21,751 nucleotides of DNA from Firmicutes bacterium UBA4874 (GTDB taxonomy: Bacteria; Bacillota; Clostridia; Caldicoprobacterales; DTU083). The position numbers and the translations under genes are program-made. Under the pieces are notes generated by a model. It was not told where the DNA came from and searched no databases. It saw nothing but the letters and a program-made list of their open reading frames with translations. Where the stretch lies: NCBI GenBank assembly GCA_002399435.1, contig DHDO01000113.1:1-21751 (forward strand), written 5' to 3'. Positions 1 to 18,712 of the stretch are shown here, one piece after another; position 1 is the first letter of the stretch, and each line of letters starts with the position of its first letter.

Positions 1-204
1 GCGGGAATCATTGCACGCAACTATGATACGGATCAGATTTACATCGATGGGCTTCTGGACATCATCGGCAAGGACAAGAGTGAGATTGAGCGATTCATTT
101 TCGATGTAAAGAAGTTATCCGACAAATTCGATATACGCTTTATCATAACAATGAACGGAAATCCTGATAGCGTACCGGCTTTTCTGAAGGAATACATCGC
201 ATAG
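1..204 (+). CDS. C-terminal end of an unrecognised protein (5' cut by window edge)
   Basis: The reading frame is open from the first base and ends at a TAG, giving 67 C-terminal residues. The composition looks like a real soluble alpha/beta protein: a hydrophobic strand (FDIRFIITMNG) follows an acidic helix (KSEIERFIFDVKKLSDKF), and the chain ends in an amphipathic helix (PAFLKEYIA). The strand followed by a polar turn resembles the late strands of a P-loop/RecA-type ATPase, but no Walker motif is inside the window, so this is only a guess. A terminator hairpin follows the stop by about 17 bases, so this is the last gene of its transcript. I do not recognise the family. Confidence 0.75.
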   Translation, partial: AGIIARNYDTDQIYIDGLLDIIGKDKSEIERFIFDVKKLSDKFDIRFIITMNGNPDSVPAFLKEYIA

Positions 205-2586: not shown

Positions 2587-3654
2587 TTAAGCTAGTTCCA
2601 GCCATTTCCTTAAATTTTTCCTTACAAATTCATTATCATTCAGGTGAGGATACATGCGAATCACCCGATCAATTTCCTCCGACTGGCCCGGAGAAAGAGT
2701 TTCCTCTGTATCCAGACACCAGATACCCTCCATCAGGCCCTGACGCCGAAGTACTTCGTGAACTCCGGCAATACAACCTTTGAATCCGTTCGCCGCATCA
2801 AAGAAAGCGGCATTGGCATCGGTTATCTGCGCAGCAAGGGTCAGAAGCCGTGCGGGAATAGCTTCCTTTTTTCCTGCTTCCTTCAACTGTTGAAAGATTT
2901 TCACTGCCGTGTGGGTCCACACCGCCCAATGACCCAGCAGTCCTCCTGTAAATCTCTGTTTGTATTCCTTTCCATCCCTGCAGAACCGATATTCGGTAAG
3001 CAGATCCATGGCAATGTGATCGTCATTACCCGTATACAGGGCAATGCTCCGCCTGCGGTCCGACAAAGCCACGGCACGTACCACATCTATGGTCTGGTAT
3101 CGGTTAAAGGAAGCACATTTGATGCCAATCACGCCGGGAATGTCGCAGAGTCTCTGCCAATAATCATAGGAAAAAATCCTGCCGCCTACCGAAGGCTGCA
3201 GATAAAAGCCCACAACCGGGAGTACGGAAGCCAATTGCTCCGTACGCCGGATCAAATCCTTCTCGCTCAGCTGTCCCAATCCGCCGGGACTCAGCAATGC
3301 GGCATCATATCCAAGCTTTTTTGCCAGCTCCGCCTCGCCTATGGCCTGATCCACAGGCCCGCAGACACCTGCCACCCGGAATATCCCTTTCCCGGTTTTC
3401 CTTTCATAGGCGTCCATTTCTTCCGAGCCGATCCTCAGTACTGGCTCCAGCAATCCAATCCGGGGATCCCGTATGGCAAACTGCGTCGTATGCACTGCCA
3501 CCGCCAGGCCCCCCGCCCCGGCATCCAGGTAATATCGGGAAAGGGCCCGCTGTCGCCGTTCATCCAGCTTTCTGTCCGAATTCAGCGCAAGTGGATGAGC
3601 TGGGATCACCGTGCCTTCCTGAAAACGTTTCAGGGCATCCTGCCGAATTGTCAT
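2587..3654 (-). CDS. Dihydrodipicolinate synthase-like class I aldolase
   Basis: The 355-residue product looks like a DapA/NAL-superfamily TIM barrel enzyme that forms a Schiff base between a lysine and a 2-oxo acid. Seen: the AGAGGLAVAVHTTQF strand region near residues 46-60, VCGPVDQAI (98-106), YDAALLSPGGLGQLS (116-130), VGFYLQPSVGG (148-158) and IGIKCASFNRY with the probable catalytic Lys179. It is longer than true DapA (about 290) and belongs to a divergent branch, so lysine biosynthesis is unlikely; a sugar-acid or hydroxy-oxo-acid aldolase or dehydratase is more probable. I chose the ATG at 3654, which overlaps the epimerase stop as TGATG with AAAGGGG 8 nt upstream; a TTG at 3657 is the alternative. 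It is the last gene of the TetR operon. Confidence 0.85.
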   Translation of the reverse strand: MTIRQDALKRFQEGTVIPAHPLALNSDRKLDERRQRALSRYYLDAGAGGLAVAVHTTQFAIRDPRIGLLEPVLRIGSEEMDAYERKTGKGIFRVAGVCGPVDQAIGEAELAKKLGYDAALLSPGGLGQLSEKDLIRRTEQLASVLPVVGFYLQPSVGGRIFSYDYWQRLCDIPGVIGIKCASFNRYQTIDVVRAVALSDRRRSIALYTGNDDHIAMDLLTEYRFCRDGKEYKQRFTGGLLGHWAVWTHTAVKIFQQLKEAGKKEAIPARLLTLAAQITDANAAFFDAANGFKGCIAGVHEVLRRQGLMEGIWCLDTEETLSPGQSEEIDRVIRMYPHLNDNEFVRKNLRKWLELA

Positions 3655-4670
3655 CAATATTTCCCCTTTCTTTCCTCAAAATGAGTTGGCTTGTTTAAAG
3701 TGCGCCCACCGGACAGAATCCATTCTGCTTGCCACTGCAGCATGGTCCGGAGGGAAACCGACGGGTATCCAAAGGTTTTCATTGCTTCCGAAGAGTTATT
3801 CAGAAACGCACTGTCCGATTCTTCCCCTTCAAACCGTACTTCCTTATGAAGCAGCTGTCCCAGCTCCATGGCAGCAAACCGGACGGAAACCGTTTCCGGA
3901 CCGGTAATGTTCATCCGCTTTGCCGGGCTTGCGGTATGAAGCAGGGCACGCAGGGCCATTTCGTTGGCATCCCCCTGCCAGATGCAGTTAAAGCACGGCA
4001 TGTTCACGGACACCGGCCGGCCCGCCATGATATCGGATGCAATATCGCAGAGTACGCCATATCGAAGATCAATTGCAAAGTTCAGGCGATAAAAAAATAC
4101 AGGTGTATGATACTTCAGGGAACCGAATTCAAATATCCTTTCCCTCCCCAGACAGGACATGGAATACTCCCCGTTTGGCATGGGAGGCGTCTCTTCCGTT
4201 GCTCCGCCGGACCAGACAGGCAGCATGGGATAGATATTTCCTGATGAAAAGACAACAATGTTGGAATGCCGGTATCGTTCCGCCACCAGGGAAGGAAGCC
4301 AGACATTCATCGCCCAGGTCCGGGACTCCTGCCCTGCTGTGCCAAATTTCCTGCCCGCCATGTAAATCACATTTTCTGCATCCGGCAGGGAATCCAGCGC
4401 TCCCTGCTCCAGGAGATCCACGGCAGTCGCTTCCACCCCGTTGTCATTCAACAGCTTCACGGCAAGGGGATCCGTAAATCGGGATACCGCAAGGATCTTT
4501 TGGCCGCTTCCTGTCCTTTCCACTGCTTTTTTAGCCAGGAGGCTCAGGGTAGGCCCCATCTTTCCCCCGGCTCCCAGGATCATAATGTCGCCCTTGATTT
4601 TTGAAATATCCTTCAGCAGCTTCTCTGAAGGAGTCGTCAGGAATTCATTCAATGTCTCTTCCTTCCACAT
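3654..4670 (-). CDS. NAD-dependent epimerase/dehydratase-like protein
   Basis: The 338-residue product is an extended short-chain dehydrogenase. The Rossmann fold shows the NAD-binding GAGGKMG at residues 33-39, AVSRF after the second strand, VIYMAGRKFG (101-110), and the active-site serines in VVFSSGNIYP (139-148). The catalytic tyrosine is Y169 in GEYSMSCLGRERIFE, but the usual lysine four residues later is Cys173. The same YxxSCLGRER arrangement occurs, as far as I recall, in a branch annotated only as epimerase, so the change may define a subfamily rather than damage. Expected chemistry is NAD-dependent oxidation or epimerisation of a sugar or sugar acid. GGGAGG lies 9 nt before the ATG, 23 nt after the tetR stop. 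The next gene overlaps by one base. Confidence 0.85.
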   Translation of the reverse strand: MWKEETLNEFLTTPSEKLLKDISKIKGDIMILGAGGKMGPTLSLLAKKAVERTGSGQKILAVSRFTDPLAVKLLNDNGVEATAVDLLEQGALDSLPDAENVIYMAGRKFGTAGQESRTWAMNVWLPSLVAERYRHSNIVVFSSGNIYPMLPVWSGGATEETPPMPNGEYSMSCLGRERIFEFGSLKYHTPVFFYRLNFAIDLRYGVLCDIASDIMAGRPVSVNMPCFNCIWQGDANEMALRALLHTASPAKRMNITGPETVSVRFAAMELGQLLHKEVRFEGEESDSAFLNNSSEAMKTFGYPSVSLRTMLQWQAEWILSGGRTLNKPTHFEERKGKY

Positions 4671-6295: not shown

Positions 6296-8020
6296 TTGGA
6301 CAAACATATCGTAGCAGATATCCTGAATGAAATTGGCTTTTATCTGGAATGGAAAGGGGAAAGCCCGTTTAAAACCCGTGCCTATGAAAATGGGGCCAGA
6401 GCTGTGGAGTCCCTGGATGAGGATCTGAAAACTCTGGTTCAGGAAAACAGACTGGGTAGCGTCCGGGGCATTGGAAAGGCCTTGGAACAAAAAATAAGCG
6501 AATTGGTGACAACTGGTCATTTAAAATATTATGAAGACCTGAAAGCGGAGTTTCCATCCGGCTTGTTCGAGCTTTTGAAGATTCCGGGTCTGGGCATCAA
6601 AAAAGTTCGTACCCTTTATGACACACTTGGAATCACCACCATCGGGGAGCTGGAATATGCATGCCGGGAAAATCGTCTGGTGGATCTGCCCGGATTTGGG
6701 GAAAAGACGCAGCAAAATATTATGAAGGGGATTGCCCATGCCCGTACCGGAGCCGATCGGTATTTGCTTTCCGAAGCCGGTGAAGTGGCCTATTCCATCC
6801 TGAAGAAGGGGAAGGACTGTCCGCAGGTTCAATCGATGCAGATTGCAGGGAGTCTGCGCAGAAGCCGGGAAACGGTCAAGGATATTGATATATTGGCATC
6901 TTCCGACCAACCGGAGGACGTCATGAAGTATTTTGTATCCCTGCCGGATGTGGCGGATGTTACCGGACAGGGGGAGACCAAAACCAGTGTCCGGCTGAAG
7001 GAAGGAATTGCCATGGATTTGCGGGTGGTATCTCCGGAACAATATCCTTATGCCCTTCAGCATTTTACGGGAAGCAGGGAGCATAACACCAGATTGCGGC
7101 ATCTGGCAAAGTCCATGGATCTGAAAATGAATGAATACGGCTTATTCCGCGGAGAAGACGAAGAGAGGATTTCCTGTGCAAACGAAGAAGAGATATACCA
7201 GGCTTTGGGAATGTCCTATATTCCTCCTGAATTACGGGAGGATACGGGAGAAATCGAAGCGGCATTGGAGGGCAGGCTGCCAATGTTGGTGGAAAGCAGG
7301 GACCTTCAGGGAATCTTTCATCTGCACAGCCGGTACAGTGATGGCAGCGATACTCTGGCGGCTCTGGCGGAAGGGACGCATAGACAGGGATATCACTATA
7401 TGGGAATATCCGATCACAGTCGTTCTGCCTATTATGCCCGTGGCCTGAAGGAAGAGGATGTTATCCGGCAGCAGGAAGAGATTGATAAGCTCAATGCGGA
7501 ATGGGAGGATTTCCATATTTTCAGGGGCATCGAATCCGATATTCTTCCGGATGGATCCCTGGATTATCCGGATGGTTTTCTGAATCGTTTTGATTTTGTG
7601 ATTGCATCCGTCCATTCAAATTTTCGGATGGACAGGAGCAGCATGACCAATCGAATTTTGAGAGTGCTGGATAATCCGCATACCACTATTCTGGGGCATC
7701 CGACGGGCAGACTGCTTCTGTCCCGGGACGGATATGAACTGGATATGGAACGTATTCTGGAGAAGGCGGCGGAGAAGGAAATCGTGATAGAGATCAATGC
7801 CAATCCCCATCGGCTGGATCTGGACTGGCGCTGGTGCAAAAAAGCAAAGGAAATGGGAATTCGTCTGATGATTAATCCGGACGCTCACAGTGTATCCGAG
7901 ATCTCCAATACGGGGTTTGGCACAACGGTCGCCCGCAAAGGCTGGTGTGAAAAAAAGGACATATTGAATTGCCTGGATACAGCCGGCATGAAGGAATTTT
8001 TAGAGAAAGCGAAAGTTTGA
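6296..8020 (+). CDS. polX: DNA polymerase/3'-5' exonuclease PolX
   Basis: The 574-residue product has the standard bacterial PolX layout. An N-terminal lyase-like 8-kDa domain and helix-hairpin-helix segments come first (GIGKALEQKI near 58, IPGLGIKKVRTLY near 96, LPGFGEKTQQNI near 131). The polymerase nucleotidyltransferase core has GSLRR (185-189), the metal-binding D196 and D198 in KDIDIL, D241, and HFTGSREHN (256-264). A C-terminal PHP domain follows with HLHSRYSDG (342-350), SDHS (372-375), GIESD, SVHSN, GHPTG and NPDAHS, containing the expected His/Asp/Glu metal ligands. It acts in base-excision and gap-filling repair. Length is normal. Start is TTG with GAAGGAG 8 nt upstream; the nearby ATG at 6291 is out of frame. 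Confidence 0.95.
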   Translation: MDKHIVADILNEIGFYLEWKGESPFKTRAYENGARAVESLDEDLKTLVQENRLGSVRGIGKALEQKISELVTTGHLKYYEDLKAEFPSGLFELLKIPGLGIKKVRTLYDTLGITTIGELEYACRENRLVDLPGFGEKTQQNIMKGIAHARTGADRYLLSEAGEVAYSILKKGKDCPQVQSMQIAGSLRRSRETVKDIDILASSDQPEDVMKYFVSLPDVADVTGQGETKTSVRLKEGIAMDLRVVSPEQYPYALQHFTGSREHNTRLRHLAKSMDLKMNEYGLFRGEDEERISCANEEEIYQALGMSYIPPELREDTGEIEAALEGRLPMLVESRDLQGIFHLHSRYSDGSDTLAALAEGTHRQGYHYMGISDHSRSAYYARGLKEEDVIRQQEEIDKLNAEWEDFHIFRGIESDILPDGSLDYPDGFLNRFDFVIASVHSNFRMDRSSMTNRILRVLDNPHTTILGHPTGRLLLSRDGYELDMERILEKAAEKEIVIEINANPHRLDLDWRWCKKAKEMGIRLMINPDAHSVSEISNTGFGTTVARKGWCEKKDILNCLDTAGMKEFLEKAKV

Positions 8021-8067: not shown

Positions 8068-8113
8068 ACAGGCAAGCGGCTAAGTAAGATTCAGCAGAAA
8101 GGAGGGATGTAAT

Positions 8114-9886
8114 ATGATCAATGGGAATACAACGGGATTATCCAAACACATTCTATCCCGATTGGAAAGTATAAACGAAATATCAGTGGACAGGGAAGAT
8201 TATCTTTCTGAGGAACTGATCCGGCTGCTTTGTGAATGGACCGGTCAGATCAATCGTGAGATATCCGTTTATTTGAGCCGCAGAGGAGAGATTCTGGATG
8301 TTTCCATGGGAGAACATGATCAGGTCTCCCTGCCCGACAAAGGACTGCGGCGAAGTGAGACGCGCCTGAGCGGAATCCGATGCATCCATACCCATCCCAA
8401 CGGCAGCGGCAGGCTGTCCCGGGTGGATCTGAATTCCCTCTGGAAAATGCGGTTTGATGCCATAACTGCCATAGGGGTCCGGGACGGGGCATTTTCGGAC
8501 TGCTATACGGCCTTTTTGAATCCTCCCGGGGAATCGGAAGAGCCTTACGTGATTTACGGGCCTGTCCCTGTGGAGGAGCTTTGTGGTCCGGCCCTGATGC
8601 GGGAGATCCGGAGGCGGGATCCGCTGATCGGCATTCCTGCGGCGGTTCGTCCCTCGACGGAGGAAGATGAACGGGCGGTTCTTATCGGCCTGGACGACCA
8701 TGGAGAAGGGCTTGCTTCGCTCAATGAACTGGAGGAACTGGCATGGACGGCCGGTGCAGAAGTGTTGTACAAAACCACGCAAAACCGGAAGGCACCGGAA
8801 GCGGGCACTTATATCGGAAGGGGAAAAGCATCTGAGGTGGCACTTTTGTGTCAGTCCCGGAATGCCAATCTGGTGATAGCGGATGATGAACTTTCCGCGG
8901 CTCAGATCAAAAATCTGGAAGATATACTGGGAGTCAGGGTAATTGACCGTACTGCGCTTATCCTTGATATCTTTTCCAGACATGCCGTATCAAGGGAAGG
9001 TAAGCTGCAGGTGGAACTGGCCCAGCTCAAATACCGTCTTCCCAGGCTGATGGGCATGGGAATTGCTCTTTCCCGTCTGGGAGGCGGCATTGGCACCAGA
9101 GGGCCGGGGGAGAAAAAGCTGGAAACCGATCGGCGTCATATTCACAGGAGAATTCATGAAATTGAAGGGGAGCTGGAAAAGGTCCAGGCAAGGAGAGGTG
9201 CCCTGCGGGCAAAACGTGAAAAACACAGGATCCCCATTGTCGCTCTTGCCGGCTATACCAATGCCGGAAAAAGCACGCTGCTCAATGCCCTGACCGGCAG
9301 TGACGTCCTGGTGGAAGACAAATTGTTTGCCACGCTGGATCCGGTTTCCAGGGGAATCAGCCTGCCGGACGGCCGGCGGTTCCTTCTGATTGATACCGTG
9401 GGCTTCATTGATAAACTGCCTCATGATCTGGTGGAGGCTTTCCATTCGACTTTGGAGGAAGTGGTAAAGGCAGACTTGCTGCTGCATGTTGTGGATGCAG
9501 GTTCGCCGAACCTGCTGGAGCAGGCGGCGGTGGTGCGCCGGGTCCTGAGGGAGCTGGGAGCATCCCAGAAAATCATTACGGTATACAATAAAATGGATAC
9601 CGTAACGGATCCAGCTATGCTTCCCGTTGAAAAACCGCAGGCATTCCTTTCCGCCCGCAATGGGGAGGGACTGGAGGAGCTTCTTGCGTTGATCCGGGAA
9701 AACCTGCCGGGACAGACCCATCATCTGCAGCTGGTTGTGCCCTATGACCAGGGGACGATCCGATCCCTGCTCCATGAGGAAGGCAATATTCTTGAGGAGG
9801 AGTTTATGGAAGACGGTGTTCGGATGGTGGCTGAGGTGGACGATGCCCTGTACGGCAGAGTTAAAAATTTTGTAAAAATGGTTTAA
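8114..9886 (+). CDS. hflX: GTPase HflX with an N-terminal JAMM/MPN-like extension
   Basis: The 590-residue product is longer than typical HflX (about 400-430). Residues 185-590 are HflX: the HflX N-domain (GLASLNELEELAWTAGAEV, GTYIGRGKASEVA), the linker with LGGGIGTRGPGEKKLETDRR (322-341) and a coiled coil. The G domain follows with G1 GYTNAGKS (380-387), G3 DTVGF (427-431), G4 NKMD (492-495) and G5 SAR (513-515). HflX binds 50S subunits and splits stalled or hibernating ribosomes. The first 180 residues form a second domain with E49 and H92-x-H94-P-x6-S102-x2-D105, exactly the zinc-binding JAMM pattern. AGGAGGG lies 7 nt before the ATG. The gene follows polX by 93 bp. Confidence 0.93.
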   Translation: MINGNTTGLSKHILSRLESINEISVDREDYLSEELIRLLCEWTGQINREISVYLSRRGEILDVSMGEHDQVSLPDKGLRRSETRLSGIRCIHTHPNGSGRLSRVDLNSLWKMRFDAITAIGVRDGAFSDCYTAFLNPPGESEEPYVIYGPVPVEELCGPALMREIRRRDPLIGIPAAVRPSTEEDERAVLIGLDDHGEGLASLNELEELAWTAGAEVLYKTTQNRKAPEAGTYIGRGKASEVALLCQSRNANLVIADDELSAAQIKNLEDILGVRVIDRTALILDIFSRHAVSREGKLQVELAQLKYRLPRLMGMGIALSRLGGGIGTRGPGEKKLETDRRHIHRRIHEIEGELEKVQARRGALRAKREKHRIPIVALAGYTNAGKSTLLNALTGSDVLVEDKLFATLDPVSRGISLPDGRRFLLIDTVGFIDKLPHDLVEAFHSTLEEVVKADLLLHVVDAGSPNLLEQAAVVRRVLRELGASQKIITVYNKMDTVTDPAMLPVEKPQAFLSARNGEGLEELLALIRENLPGQTHHLQLVVPYDQGTIRSLLHEEGNILEEEFMEDGVRMVAEVDDALYGRVKNFVKMV

Positions 9887-9987: not shown

Positions 9988-10176
9988 TTGAAAGCACATG
10001 TGGATCCGGATTTGTGCATCAGCTGCGGGCTGTGTATCAGCACCTGCGAGGATGTATTTCATTGGGGCGATGACGAGAAGGCAGAGGCCATAGAGGAGGA
10101 TGTTCCGGCGGAACTGGAGGATTCGGTCCAGGAGGCTATCGAAAATTGTCCTACGGAAGCCATTAAGGAAGTTTGA
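9988..10176 (+). CDS. 4Fe-4S ferredoxin
   Basis: The 62-residue acidic product is a small soluble electron carrier. C10-x2-C13-x2-C16 and C54-P fit ligation of a single 4Fe-4S cluster, as in monocluster ferredoxins of Bacillus, Thermotoga and Desulfovibrio. A fifth cysteine, C20, sits where a two-cluster ferredoxin would have its next ligand, but the rest of the second cluster motif is absent. Start is TTG with GAGGAGG 7 nt upstream. It is a short single gene followed by a strong terminator. Its redox partner is not evident from the neighbours. Confidence 0.92.
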   Translation: MKAHVDPDLCISCGLCISTCEDVFHWGDDEKAEAIEEDVPAELEDSVQEAIENCPTEAIKEV

Positions 10177-13597: not shown

Positions 13598-15289
13598 ATG
13601 GGGACTCAGAGATTTCGGAAGGACCGCTTTCTTTTTCTTGCTGTCTTTCTTTTTTCGGCTGTTCTGTATGGCCTGGTATGGTGGCTGAATCCATACCTGT
13701 ATCATGTTTTTCATATGGACGATTTTCTGACCATTCATATTTGCCTGGAGCTTCTGAGTATCGTTATGTCCTTTTGTATTTTTTTAATTGCCTATTATAC
13801 ATTTGAGCGCTGCAGGCGCCTGCGGACGCTCATTTTCTCATGTACATTTCTGGCGGTTGGCCTGCTGGATCTTTTCCATACTCTTGGCTACAATGGCATG
13901 CCAAGGTTTTTGACTCCGCCTTCCGTATCGAAGGCAACGTCCTTTTGGATTGCTGCCCGTCTCACTTCCTGTATTGGGATGCTCATTGCCGGCCTGGTAC
14001 GGGACAAAACCACAAGGGTCAGCCGAAGGCTCTGTGCTGCAGCTTCCCTGGTTTACAGCGGAATCCTTCTTTATCTCCTGACCTACCGGCTGGATCGGGT
14101 TCCACCCCTGTTTATTGAGGGGCAGGGACTGACCCCCCTGAAGATCCATCTGGAGTATCTGATTATCGCCGTCTTTTTGATCAGTCTGGGGCTTTTTTAT
14201 CGGATTTACAGATGGGAGAAGGGGGAGGAAGGATACCGATACGTCATTCTTTCGATTTTGCTGAGTATTTTCAGTGAACTGGCATTTACGCAGTACTACA
14301 ATGTATATGATTCCTATAATCTGTTGGGACATATTTATAAAATTGTCGCCTATTATTTCTTGTTTAAGGCAAAGTTTGTATTAAATGTTCAGAAGCCCTA
14401 TCGTGCTTTACATAAGACAGAGCAGAAGCTGAGCCAGTATGCAGACGGTCTGGAAGATCAGGTGGAGCAGAGGACGAAAGAAATTACAGCGGCCAATGAA
14501 AAGCTGATAAAGGATCTGAACGATGCCAGACATATTCAGAGTGCGCTGCTGCCTGTCAGCTTTCCCATGGCAGAGAGACTTGAATTTTACGCCAGCTACA
14601 TGCCCTGTGAAAAAATCGGCGGCGATTTCTACAATGTATACCGGCTGGATGATGAAAATGTGGGGGTTCTGATCGGCGACGTGGCAGGCCATGGCGTCTC
14701 CGCTGCCATGATCACCGTCTTCATTAATCAGAACATTCATGTCCGCAGGGAATATGACGACGGGCGTATCCGGGTGCTGTCTCCCAAGCAGGTTCTGAAT
14801 AATCTCTATTATACCTATAATCGGATGCCGTTCCCCGAGGAAACCTATACCGTGCTTTTTTATGGAATCTATCATTTAAAGAGCCGGGTATTGACTTATT
14901 GTTCTGCGGGAATGAATGTTTCTCCCCTCGTTCTGGAGAAAAGCGGGGAAGTCCGGCCGGTCCCCATTGTAGGTCTGCCAATCTGTAAGCTGGCAGAGAT
15001 TGTAAGCCCTTCCTATGAGAATCGGAAAATCCAGCTGGAGGAAGGAGACAGCCTTCTGCTCTTTACGGATGGGCTGATTGAAATTGACCGGAAGAAGCCG
15101 GATCAATTCGATGAGCCCAATCTGATGGAGTTCCTGAAAGGAATGAAGAACAAGACTGCGGAAGAAACGGCAGGCTACCTGCTGGATCTGTATCAGGCAA
15201 TATTGGGGGGCAATCAAATGATCGATGATGTAACGGTACTTGTTATGAAAATCAGGGAATCTGATGGAAAGGAGGTGAAATCGTTATGA
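13598..15289 (+). CDS. MASE3 membrane sensor fused to a PP2C-type (SpoIIE/RsbU) phosphatase
   Basis: The 563-residue product has an N-terminal membrane part of about seven helices (residues 11-262), with the LDLFHTLGYNGMP motif (90-102) typical of MASE3. A coiled-coil linker (270-310, HKTEQKLSQYADGLEDQVEQRTKEITAANEKL) leads to a PPM/SpoIIE phosphatase domain (310-555). Metal-binding aspartates are seen in GGDFY (D343), GDVAGHG (D361), FTDG (D491) and DDVTVLV (D543/D544). Such enzymes dephosphorylate STAS antagonists and so activate a sigma factor or another partner-switch client in response to a membrane signal. GGAGGGGG lies 3 nt before the ATG. Its stop overlaps the next gene's ATG as ATGA, so the two are translationally coupled. 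The input signal is unknown. Confidence 0.93.
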   Translation: MGTQRFRKDRFLFLAVFLFSAVLYGLVWWLNPYLYHVFHMDDFLTIHICLELLSIVMSFCIFLIAYYTFERCRRLRTLIFSCTFLAVGLLDLFHTLGYNGMPRFLTPPSVSKATSFWIAARLTSCIGMLIAGLVRDKTTRVSRRLCAAASLVYSGILLYLLTYRLDRVPPLFIEGQGLTPLKIHLEYLIIAVFLISLGLFYRIYRWEKGEEGYRYVILSILLSIFSELAFTQYYNVYDSYNLLGHIYKIVAYYFLFKAKFVLNVQKPYRALHKTEQKLSQYADGLEDQVEQRTKEITAANEKLIKDLNDARHIQSALLPVSFPMAERLEFYASYMPCEKIGGDFYNVYRLDDENVGVLIGDVAGHGVSAAMITVFINQNIHVRREYDDGRIRVLSPKQVLNNLYYTYNRMPFPEETYTVLFYGIYHLKSRVLTYCSAGMNVSPLVLEKSGEVRPVPIVGLPICKLAEIVSPSYENRKIQLEEGDSLLLFTDGLIEIDRKKPDQFDEPNLMEFLKGMKNKTAEETAGYLLDLYQAILGGNQMIDDVTVLVMKIRESDGKEVKSL

Positions 15290-17458: not shown

Positions 17459-18712
17459 TTGAAGAGTCTGTCAGGAATGGTAATGCTGCCTTTTCCGTTT
17501 GGAAACAGAAGTAAGGGCAGGGAAAAGATAGATGGCAGACTGCTTAAAAAGACCAGGACTTTAGGCTTGAGCAGTATTTCCGCCATTGTGTTTTCCAAAG
17601 AGAAGGAAGAGGAAACAAACAGCTGCAAGAAGTATCTGGAAAGCAAAGGCGTGGAGATAAAATATGATCTTCCTTTCATCAATGCTTATGCTGTTGTGAT
17701 AGAAGGCGTGAAGCTGGAAGATACAGCAAGGGCGGATGTCGTCCAGTATATTTCAGATGATATTGAGATGAGCTCACTTTTAAACGTAGCCGCCCAGGAG
17801 GTTGGGGCCAGAGCAATCAATAATACAGGATATACAGGGAAGGGTGTCGGTATTGCAATATTGGATACCGGTATTTACCCACATCAGGATTTCATAAGAC
17901 CAAGGAACCGGATCATAGCATTTAAGGACTTTGTAAACAACAAATTGTCCCCTTATGATGACAACGGACATGGCACCTTTGTTGCCGGCGTTGCAGCAGG
18001 AAGTGGGTATGAATCCGGCGGCAAATACAAGGGAATTGCACCGGAGGCCAGCCTGATCGGAGTGAAGGTCATGGATAAGAACGGCTCCGGCAATTCATCC
18101 GATATTCTGGCAGGTATGCAATGGGTCGCAGATCATCAGAAGGAATACAAAATAAAGGTGCTGTCACTTTCCCTGGGTGCACAGCCTTCCGGTTCCCGGA
18201 TGGATCCTCTTGCGGCGGCAGTTGAAGAAATCTGGAGAAGAGGGATTGTAGTAGTTGCGGCGGCAGGAAATGCCGGTCCCAGTCAAAATACCATAGCCAC
18301 TCCGGGCGTAAGCCCGCTCATCTTAACGGTCGGAGCGGTGGACGATAATCGAACCCCGAAGTACGAAGACGATAAGATAGCAGAGTTTTCAAGCCGGGGC
18401 CCTGTGAACCGAAATCTCGTAAAACCGGATATCGTGGCACCTGGTGTAGGCATTACTGCGCCGGACGCGGATCTGGAATATACCGGCTCCCGCCGGCCGG
18501 AAGCCCTGAAAATACCTTATAAGAGCATGTCAGGTACCTCTGTGGCAACGCCGGTTGTTTCCGGCGCAGCTGCCCTGCTTCTCGGGAAAAATCCGGAAAT
18601 GACGCCGTCTGAGGTAAAAGAAGCTTTGATGAAAAATGCTTATCAAATGAATGTAAGTAAATATGCACAGGGGAAAGGAATATTGAATATTCGGAAGTCC
18701 ATGGGTATTTAA
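17459..18712 (+). CDS. Subtilisin-like serine protease (S8 family)
   Basis: The 417-residue product has the complete subtilase triad: D136 in ILDTGIYPHQDF, H171 in NGHGTFVAG, S361 in SGTSVATP, and the oxyanion Asn271 in AAGNAGP. Residues 35-105 look like a short inhibitor-type propeptide (SAIVFSKEKEE...INAYAVVIEGVK). There is no clear signal peptide, so it is closer to the intracellular AprX-like type than to secreted subtilisin. It could act in the mother cell, but cell location is inferred. Start is the TTG at 17459 with AAGGGGGG about 7 nt upstream. It follows the 72-residue gene by 84 bp and ends in a strong terminator. Confidence 0.95.
   Translation: MKSLSGMVMLPFPFGNRSKGREKIDGRLLKKTRTLGLSSISAIVFSKEKEEETNSCKKYLESKGVEIKYDLPFINAYAVVIEGVKLEDTARADVVQYISDDIEMSSLLNVAAQEVGARAINNTGYTGKGVGIAILDTGIYPHQDFIRPRNRIIAFKDFVNNKLSPYDDNGHGTFVAGVAAGSGYESGGKYKGIAPEASLIGVKVMDKNGSGNSSDILAGMQWVADHQKEYKIKVLSLSLGAQPSGSRMDPLAAAVEEIWRRGIVVVAAAGNAGPSQNTIATPGVSPLILTVGAVDDNRTPKYEDDKIAEFSSRGPVNRNLVKPDIVAPGVGITAPDADLEYTGSRRPEALKIPYKSMSGTSVATPVVSGAAALLLGKNPEMTPSEVKEALMKNAYQMNVSKYAQGKGILNIRKSMGI

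Follow-up and report, generated by a model that had tools for sequence, protein, structure and literature searches.

Does a GTPase that splits ribosomes carry a second enzyme on the same chain? The question is raised by the hflX gene on a 21,751-nucleotide contig of Firmicutes bacterium UBA4874 (DHDO01000113.1, assembly GCA_002399435.1; this whole stretch is called the window below), whose product begins with a domain bearing the residues of a JAMM metalloprotease site. We establish the motif, its conservation, the predicted fold, the fusion to HflX and the distribution of the domain, and we consider it probable that residues 1-186 form a JAB/MPN+ (JAMM-type) domain on a complete HflX, working as a metal-dependent hydrolase that would meet its substrate upon ribosome splitting.

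The N-terminal domain and the HflX core

The gene, its likely start signal and the parts of its product are as follows (pLDDT, predicted local distance difference test).

8100..8105, + strand: AGGAGG, likely ribosome-binding site, 8 bases upstream of ATG 8114, read from the sequence
8114..9886, + strand: hflX, HflX GTPase with an N-terminal JAB/MPN+-like domain, 590 amino acids (TIGR03156)
8114..8671, + strand: N-terminal domain, residues 1-186, AlphaFold model, pLDDT 88.2
8195..8593, + strand: JAB/MPN-like core, about residues 28-160, from alignment to solved JAMM structures
8258..8260, + strand: E49, predicted catalytic glutamate, opening strand 49-55 and pairing with the RadC Glu
8351..8383, + strand: R80-x4-L85-x-G87-x-R89-C90, conserved run ahead of the site
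8387..8395, + strand: H92-T93-H94, predicted zinc ligands, end of strand 88-94
8417..8428, + strand: S102-x2-D105, start of helix 103-112, with the serine predicted at the oxyanion and the aspartate as third zinc ligand
8675..9706, + strand: HflX core, comprising GTP-bdg_N, GTP-bdg_M and the G domain, with GYTNAGKST at residues 380-388

The GTPase core of the window HflX looks complete. With all HflX core domains in place, the protein scores 459.1 bits against TIGR03156 (equivalog cut-off 216.75) and is the single match above the cut-off in the genome; ribosome binding and splitting are predicted from its family. The TIGR03156 match covers residues 188-531 only and the best solved HflX chains, which we take to be those of E. 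coli, Listeria, mycobacteria and others, align from residue 186 onward, so that residues 1-185 fall outside standard HflX, as an initial annotation of this DNA had held for residues 1-180. Because AGGAGG at 8100-8105 precedes the ATG at 8114, the extension is probably translated within hflX.

Residues E49, H92, H94, P95, S102 and D105 stand in the open reading frame (ORF) exactly as that annotation had claimed; H.HP.{6}S..D occurs once in the ORF, and the window domain has the H-x-H-x7-S-x2-D with upstream E that marks the JAMM superfamily. In JAMM enzymes, two His and one Asp bind the zinc, Glu is the general base, and the oxyanion position is taken by Ser. A chance motif is unlikely in view of a frame scan, shuffling and conservation among homologs. 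Other frames of 60 amino acids or longer from the loci set and the window, 802,224 residues in all, gave five matches to HxHPx6SxxD: the genome's RadC (present twice) and three further HflX copies, with no other gene among them. Shuffling the 180 residues of the domain itself 200,000 times produced E-(30..60)-HxHPx6SxxD in four cases. R80, at the head of the conserved run, is the last residue of a low-confidence loop (71-80, mean pLDDT 56).

The domain almost certainly has the JAB fold. In its model the Glu lies within a strand, HxH closes a strand and S/D sits at the helix that follows, and the closest solved structure is PfJAMM1; the resemblance to JAB/MPN, weak in some Foldseek runs, agrees with a profile match to RadC. 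Likeness to the JAMM deubiquitinases and their relatives (PfJAMM1, AMSH/Sst2, Rpn11, CSN5, BRCC36) extends to the predicted fold and the E/HxHP/S/D site, at 4-18% identity over structural alignments. Unlike these enzymes, the window domain is fused to a ribosome-splitting GTPase, and no ubiquitin partner was found for it in a ThiS-family search.

At the level of family profiles, Prok-JAB (PF14464) reaches E 0.018 and 15.4 bits on the window domain, below its 25-bit cut-off, and matches 13 of 17 diverse members (best E 4.7e-4), with RadC (PF04002) matching nine of the 17 weakly (best E 0.01) and unrelated families matching one or two of them at E down to 0.0021. In a larger scan of 49 members (48 homologs and the window domain), Prok-JAB matched 13 at E <=0.1 (best 0.0026). 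PF04002, with its cut-off of 22.1 bits, was listed neither for the whole window protein nor for its residues 1-180 when E values as high as 10 were allowed, and NCBIfam models gave no match to residues 1-180 at that same limit. Searched against PDB sequences, a 17-domain profile ranked AMSH-like proteases at the top (E 0.025), their HTHP..S..D positions aligned with those of the domain; ribosomal S19 (0.077) followed closely, as did further chance matches. Similarity to a known JAB family, again with the site in register, emerged when 121 intact domain rows (the window domain counted twice) were aligned by hhalign with 25 RadC domains: the score was 32.5, with E 1.3e-4 for one pair and 54% probability, and E49, H92, H94, S102 and D105 all fell on the RadC site, against scores of at most 19.9 for 20 column-shuffled profiles and 17.5 for the HflX core. 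A 17-row profile reached just 22.3 and 5% probability against RadC. RadC itself is a separate gene, present once in the window genome.

Conservation and distribution of the domain

Neither outcome that the initial annotation named as refuting its reading, an unrelated predicted fold or loss of the His/Asp residues in close relatives, was observed. The site is kept in close relatives: residues 1-185 have 2474 homologs at E <=1e-3, and E49, H92, H94, S102 and D105 are present in all of the best 120, in four of which P95 is replaced by Ser. Among the matches listed by three homolog searches were 249 proteins, comprising 240 intact, one (P0235) in which nothing aligns with E49, and eight site-lost, all eight contributed by the search that started from a site-lost copy. 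Together with 133 loci these gave a wider set of 382 rows, subjected to a redundancy cut at 70% and to removal of five rows for gaps (P0235, the intact L124 and L125, and the site-lost L123 and L143). The site proved to be kept in most of the distant relatives as well, 106 of the 112 non-redundant domains being intact, with mean pairwise identity among the 106 of 38% (minimum 23%). C90 and L85 are each conserved at 96% in the wider set.

The E49/H92/H94/S102/D105 site points to a metal-dependent hydrolase, most likely acting on a peptide or isopeptide bond. We predict metal binding with high confidence and regard hydrolytic activity as probable; for the bond itself, we lean slightly towards a peptide or isopeptide target. 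From what is known of the family, zinc would be bound by H92, H94 and D105, E49 would activate water and S102 would stabilise the intermediate.

In a survey of 299 genomes sampled from the phylum, the domain was detected at E <=1e-3 in 54 genomes (48 of the 267 good ones), and an additional site-lost copy was recognised on reading the long HflX of genome G150; the resulting 55 domain genes comprise 47 site-intact and eight site-lost copies. HflX itself matched in 228 of the 299 genomes at 1e-80, and the nine other sampled genomes from the window's own class showed no domain. Among titled genome contigs, a relative is encoded in 337 of 348 pattern matches, the best 80 of which bear Clostridia- or Bacillota-type titles. 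The survey, the contig titles and our literature searches thus fit the suggestion that the extension is widespread in Clostridia and little discussed. One protein, P0191, is a Clostridia-type HflX filed under a Caulobacteraceae metagenome-assembled genome name, and is probably mis-binned.

The domain lies in a single open frame with the HflX core in 133 of 134 loci (54 from the survey and the best 80 of the 337), the contig ending first in the remaining case, and no stand-alone domain was seen among these 134 domain-bearing loci. We built a tree of 109 HflX cores (47 intact, eight site-lost and 54 without the domain), in which the domain-less rows were a hand choice from about 173 genomes, mostly one per family code, with six from f56. 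Presence of the domain changes 16 times on this tree, against a shuffled mean of 36.8, and well-supported branches force three changes. Given so few forced changes and an unresolved backbone, an old fusion followed by many losses is favoured, though not proven. Since 47 of 299 genomes encode an HflX with a complete, conserved JAMM site, ribosome splitting may in many species be coupled to another reaction, probably a hydrolysis.

Copies that have lost the site

Eight of the 55 survey genes, from four family codes (f89 four, f46 two, f96 one and f88 one), retain the domain without the site, which weighs against a hydrolytic role. Three of the f89 copies (L119-L121) have a half-lost site, in which HxH has become F-x-R and the Glu, Ser and Asp positions are kept; for the fourth, L122, the retrieved stretch stops ahead of E49. 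The search seeded with a site-lost copy returned 14 matches, eight of them site-lost and of one type, carrying the names Sporohalobacter, Acetohalobium, Frackibacter, Selenihalanaerobacter and Fuchsiella, presumably all Halobacteroidaceae. HTHP is gone in all eight, with YLT at the HTH positions, while R56, G58, G66, L85, G87, R89, C90 and D115 are invariant in 19 aligned intact and site-lost sequences.

Such copies would suit an MPN-type binding or structural module, in which the metal site stabilises the domain or binds a ligand without cutting and the domain shapes HflX docking on the 50S subunit; passages of a study of mycobacterial HflX, which suggest an action of its N-terminal extension on rRNA, lend this some support (PMC12493154). 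However, the five site residues are kept jointly in 106 of 112 domains, and retention of E49 and S102 would be unexpected for a purely structural zinc site; we regard a non-cutting module as unlikely. Loss of the site with the R/G/C residues kept suggests two separable constraints on the sequence: one that may be catalytic and mostly all-or-none, and a second, which we read as docking or structure, acting on the R/G/C residues, of which several adjoin the pre-site loop 71-80. The lineages that have the domain and lack the site, L119-L121 included, offer natural controls for the hydrolase reading. The site-lost N-domain L123 (G177:C1:2587163-2587414) has one in-frame stop within the match, and the domain is missing altogether from its sister L184, which would fit a domain on its way to being lost.

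Candidate substrates, known systems and neighbouring genes

During splitting, HflX would carry the domain to the side of the large subunit that faces the small one, where, by analogy with the mycobacterial extension (uL16, H38, H69-71), it would lie beside the A site, and its substrate may be something that splitting exposes nearby. Passages of the mycobacterial study describe the N-terminal extension of M. smegmatis HflX as contacting uL16 and H38 and reaching H69-71, with H69 deflected by ND1, and report that ribosomes with peptidyl-tRNA are not bound by HflX (PMC12493154). On this analogy a ribosome-linked substrate is close to an even call. We tentatively picture a built-in zinc protease, whose JAMM domain might cleave one particular bond, be it on the large subunit once freed, on a bound factor or on a nascent chain, and which some lineages might have turned into a non-cutting adaptor.

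A site near the A site and the peptidyl transferase centre region, as the same analogy would have it, could also serve a reaction on RNA or an ester (peptidyl- or aminoacyl-tRNA), in keeping with the double-stranded DNA deaminase (9k3e) found among the Foldseek rows and with the RadC-like site alignment. JAB folds resemble deaminases, and the activity of RadC is unsettled. Known JAMM enzymes, however, cut peptide or isopeptide bonds. The failure of HflX to bind peptidyl-tRNA-bearing ribosomes, as given in the mycobacterial passages (PMC12493154), likewise speaks against an RNA or ester target, which we hold to be very improbable.

The fold, site conservation and distribution envisaged by the initial annotation stand, but its speculation that a modifier is clipped at the ribosome finds no help from ThiS-type ubiquitin-like proteins. 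In its specific form, the domain would strip ribosomal or nascent proteins of a ubiquitin-like modifier (ThiS/MoaD/SAMP-type); passages of a 2006 survey of prokaryotic JAB systems note that bacterial JAB relatives often adjoin E1-like and Ub-like genes (PMC1779556), and PfJAMM1 has also been solved with SAMP2. Against this, the 92% complete window genome, which has one ThiF-family protein, yielded no ThiS-family match in a search covering ThiS-family modifiers only. ThiS is found at E <=1e-3 in 221 of the 299 genomes and, counted by hand, is absent from 13 of 47 intact carriers versus 65 of 252 other genomes, and thus shows no association with the intact domain. Nor was a conserved operon partner evident in the 99 of 110 loci that could be compared (window included; flanks reached about 4 kb at most for contig-scan loci and were shorter for survey loci): no neighbour family occurs in more than 14 of the 99, the 14 commonest families include no ubiquitin-like or E1 protein by eye, and the E1-like and Ub-like genes of a conjugation operon are not evident beside the JAB gene. 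Modifier removal is accordingly a distant outsider among the readings considered.

Two translation-related proteins were also compared. Prp, which we take to be the bL27 protease, is present in 37 of the 47 intact carriers, including the window genome. Eight of the ten Prp-less carriers have a bL27, in every case beginning MAHKK without a leader, and two have no bL27 match, whereas three Prp-bearing control genomes all have bL27 with a leader (bL27 genes L203-L213). The domain therefore seems to be no stand-in for Prp, and bL27 was rejected as a substrate, since Prp accounts for its processing elsewhere. The bL27 leader and Prp go together in the genomes compared. RqcH, scored by an NFACT_N match, occurs in 47 of 47 intact carriers and in 11 of 14 control genomes, and as the comparison included no non-carriers this co-occurrence carries no information.

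The fold and the GTPase are known; their combination is apparently undescribed. To our knowledge, ribosome-rescue models include no such cutting step. Studies of HflX in ribosome rescue, biogenesis and macrolide-lincosamide tolerance centre on the GTPase and its ribosome contacts, and the literature searched (titles, the starts of abstracts and some passages, outside subscription papers and preprints) holds no description of this domain on HflX. The main text of the 2006 survey mentions HflX 0 times (PMC1779556). Passages of the mycobacterial study note extensions in several Clostridium and Paenibacilli species and name no JAMM domain there, and the mycobacterial extension spans just 39-58 residues, compared with 186 in the window domain (PMC12493154).

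A parallel is offered by MPN+/MPN- pairs, in which one fold comes both with and without the site and some members are linked to translation. Rpn11/Rpn8 and eIF3h/f are such pairs. In HflX, by contrast, site-intact and site-lost domains are alternatives in different lineages. If the domain does cut, Rpn11 beside the proteasome motor would be its analogue, and an additional step would be placed in bacterial ribosome rescue across a large set of Clostridia-type bacteria, a question open to direct test through zinc content, E49 dependence and substrate trapping.

Just upstream of hflX lies a DNA polymerase X with a PHP domain (6296-8017), a family found near hflX in 6 of the 99 loci, window included. 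Directly 3' of hflX is a 62-amino-acid ORF, ferredoxin-like by eye and with a TTG start (9988-10176); a ferredoxin-like gene is the +1 neighbour in eight other loci of the 99, and the window ORF falls outside that neighbour group probably because of its TTG start. Other features of the window, among which the catalase, the phosphatase and the subtilase are ordinary, are:

1402-1974, - strand: manganese catalase
3654-4670, - strand: 338-amino-acid ORF, NAD-dependent epimerase-like by eye, no Pfam match at 1e-5
13598-15286: MASE3-SpoIIE phosphatase
17459-18709: subtilase
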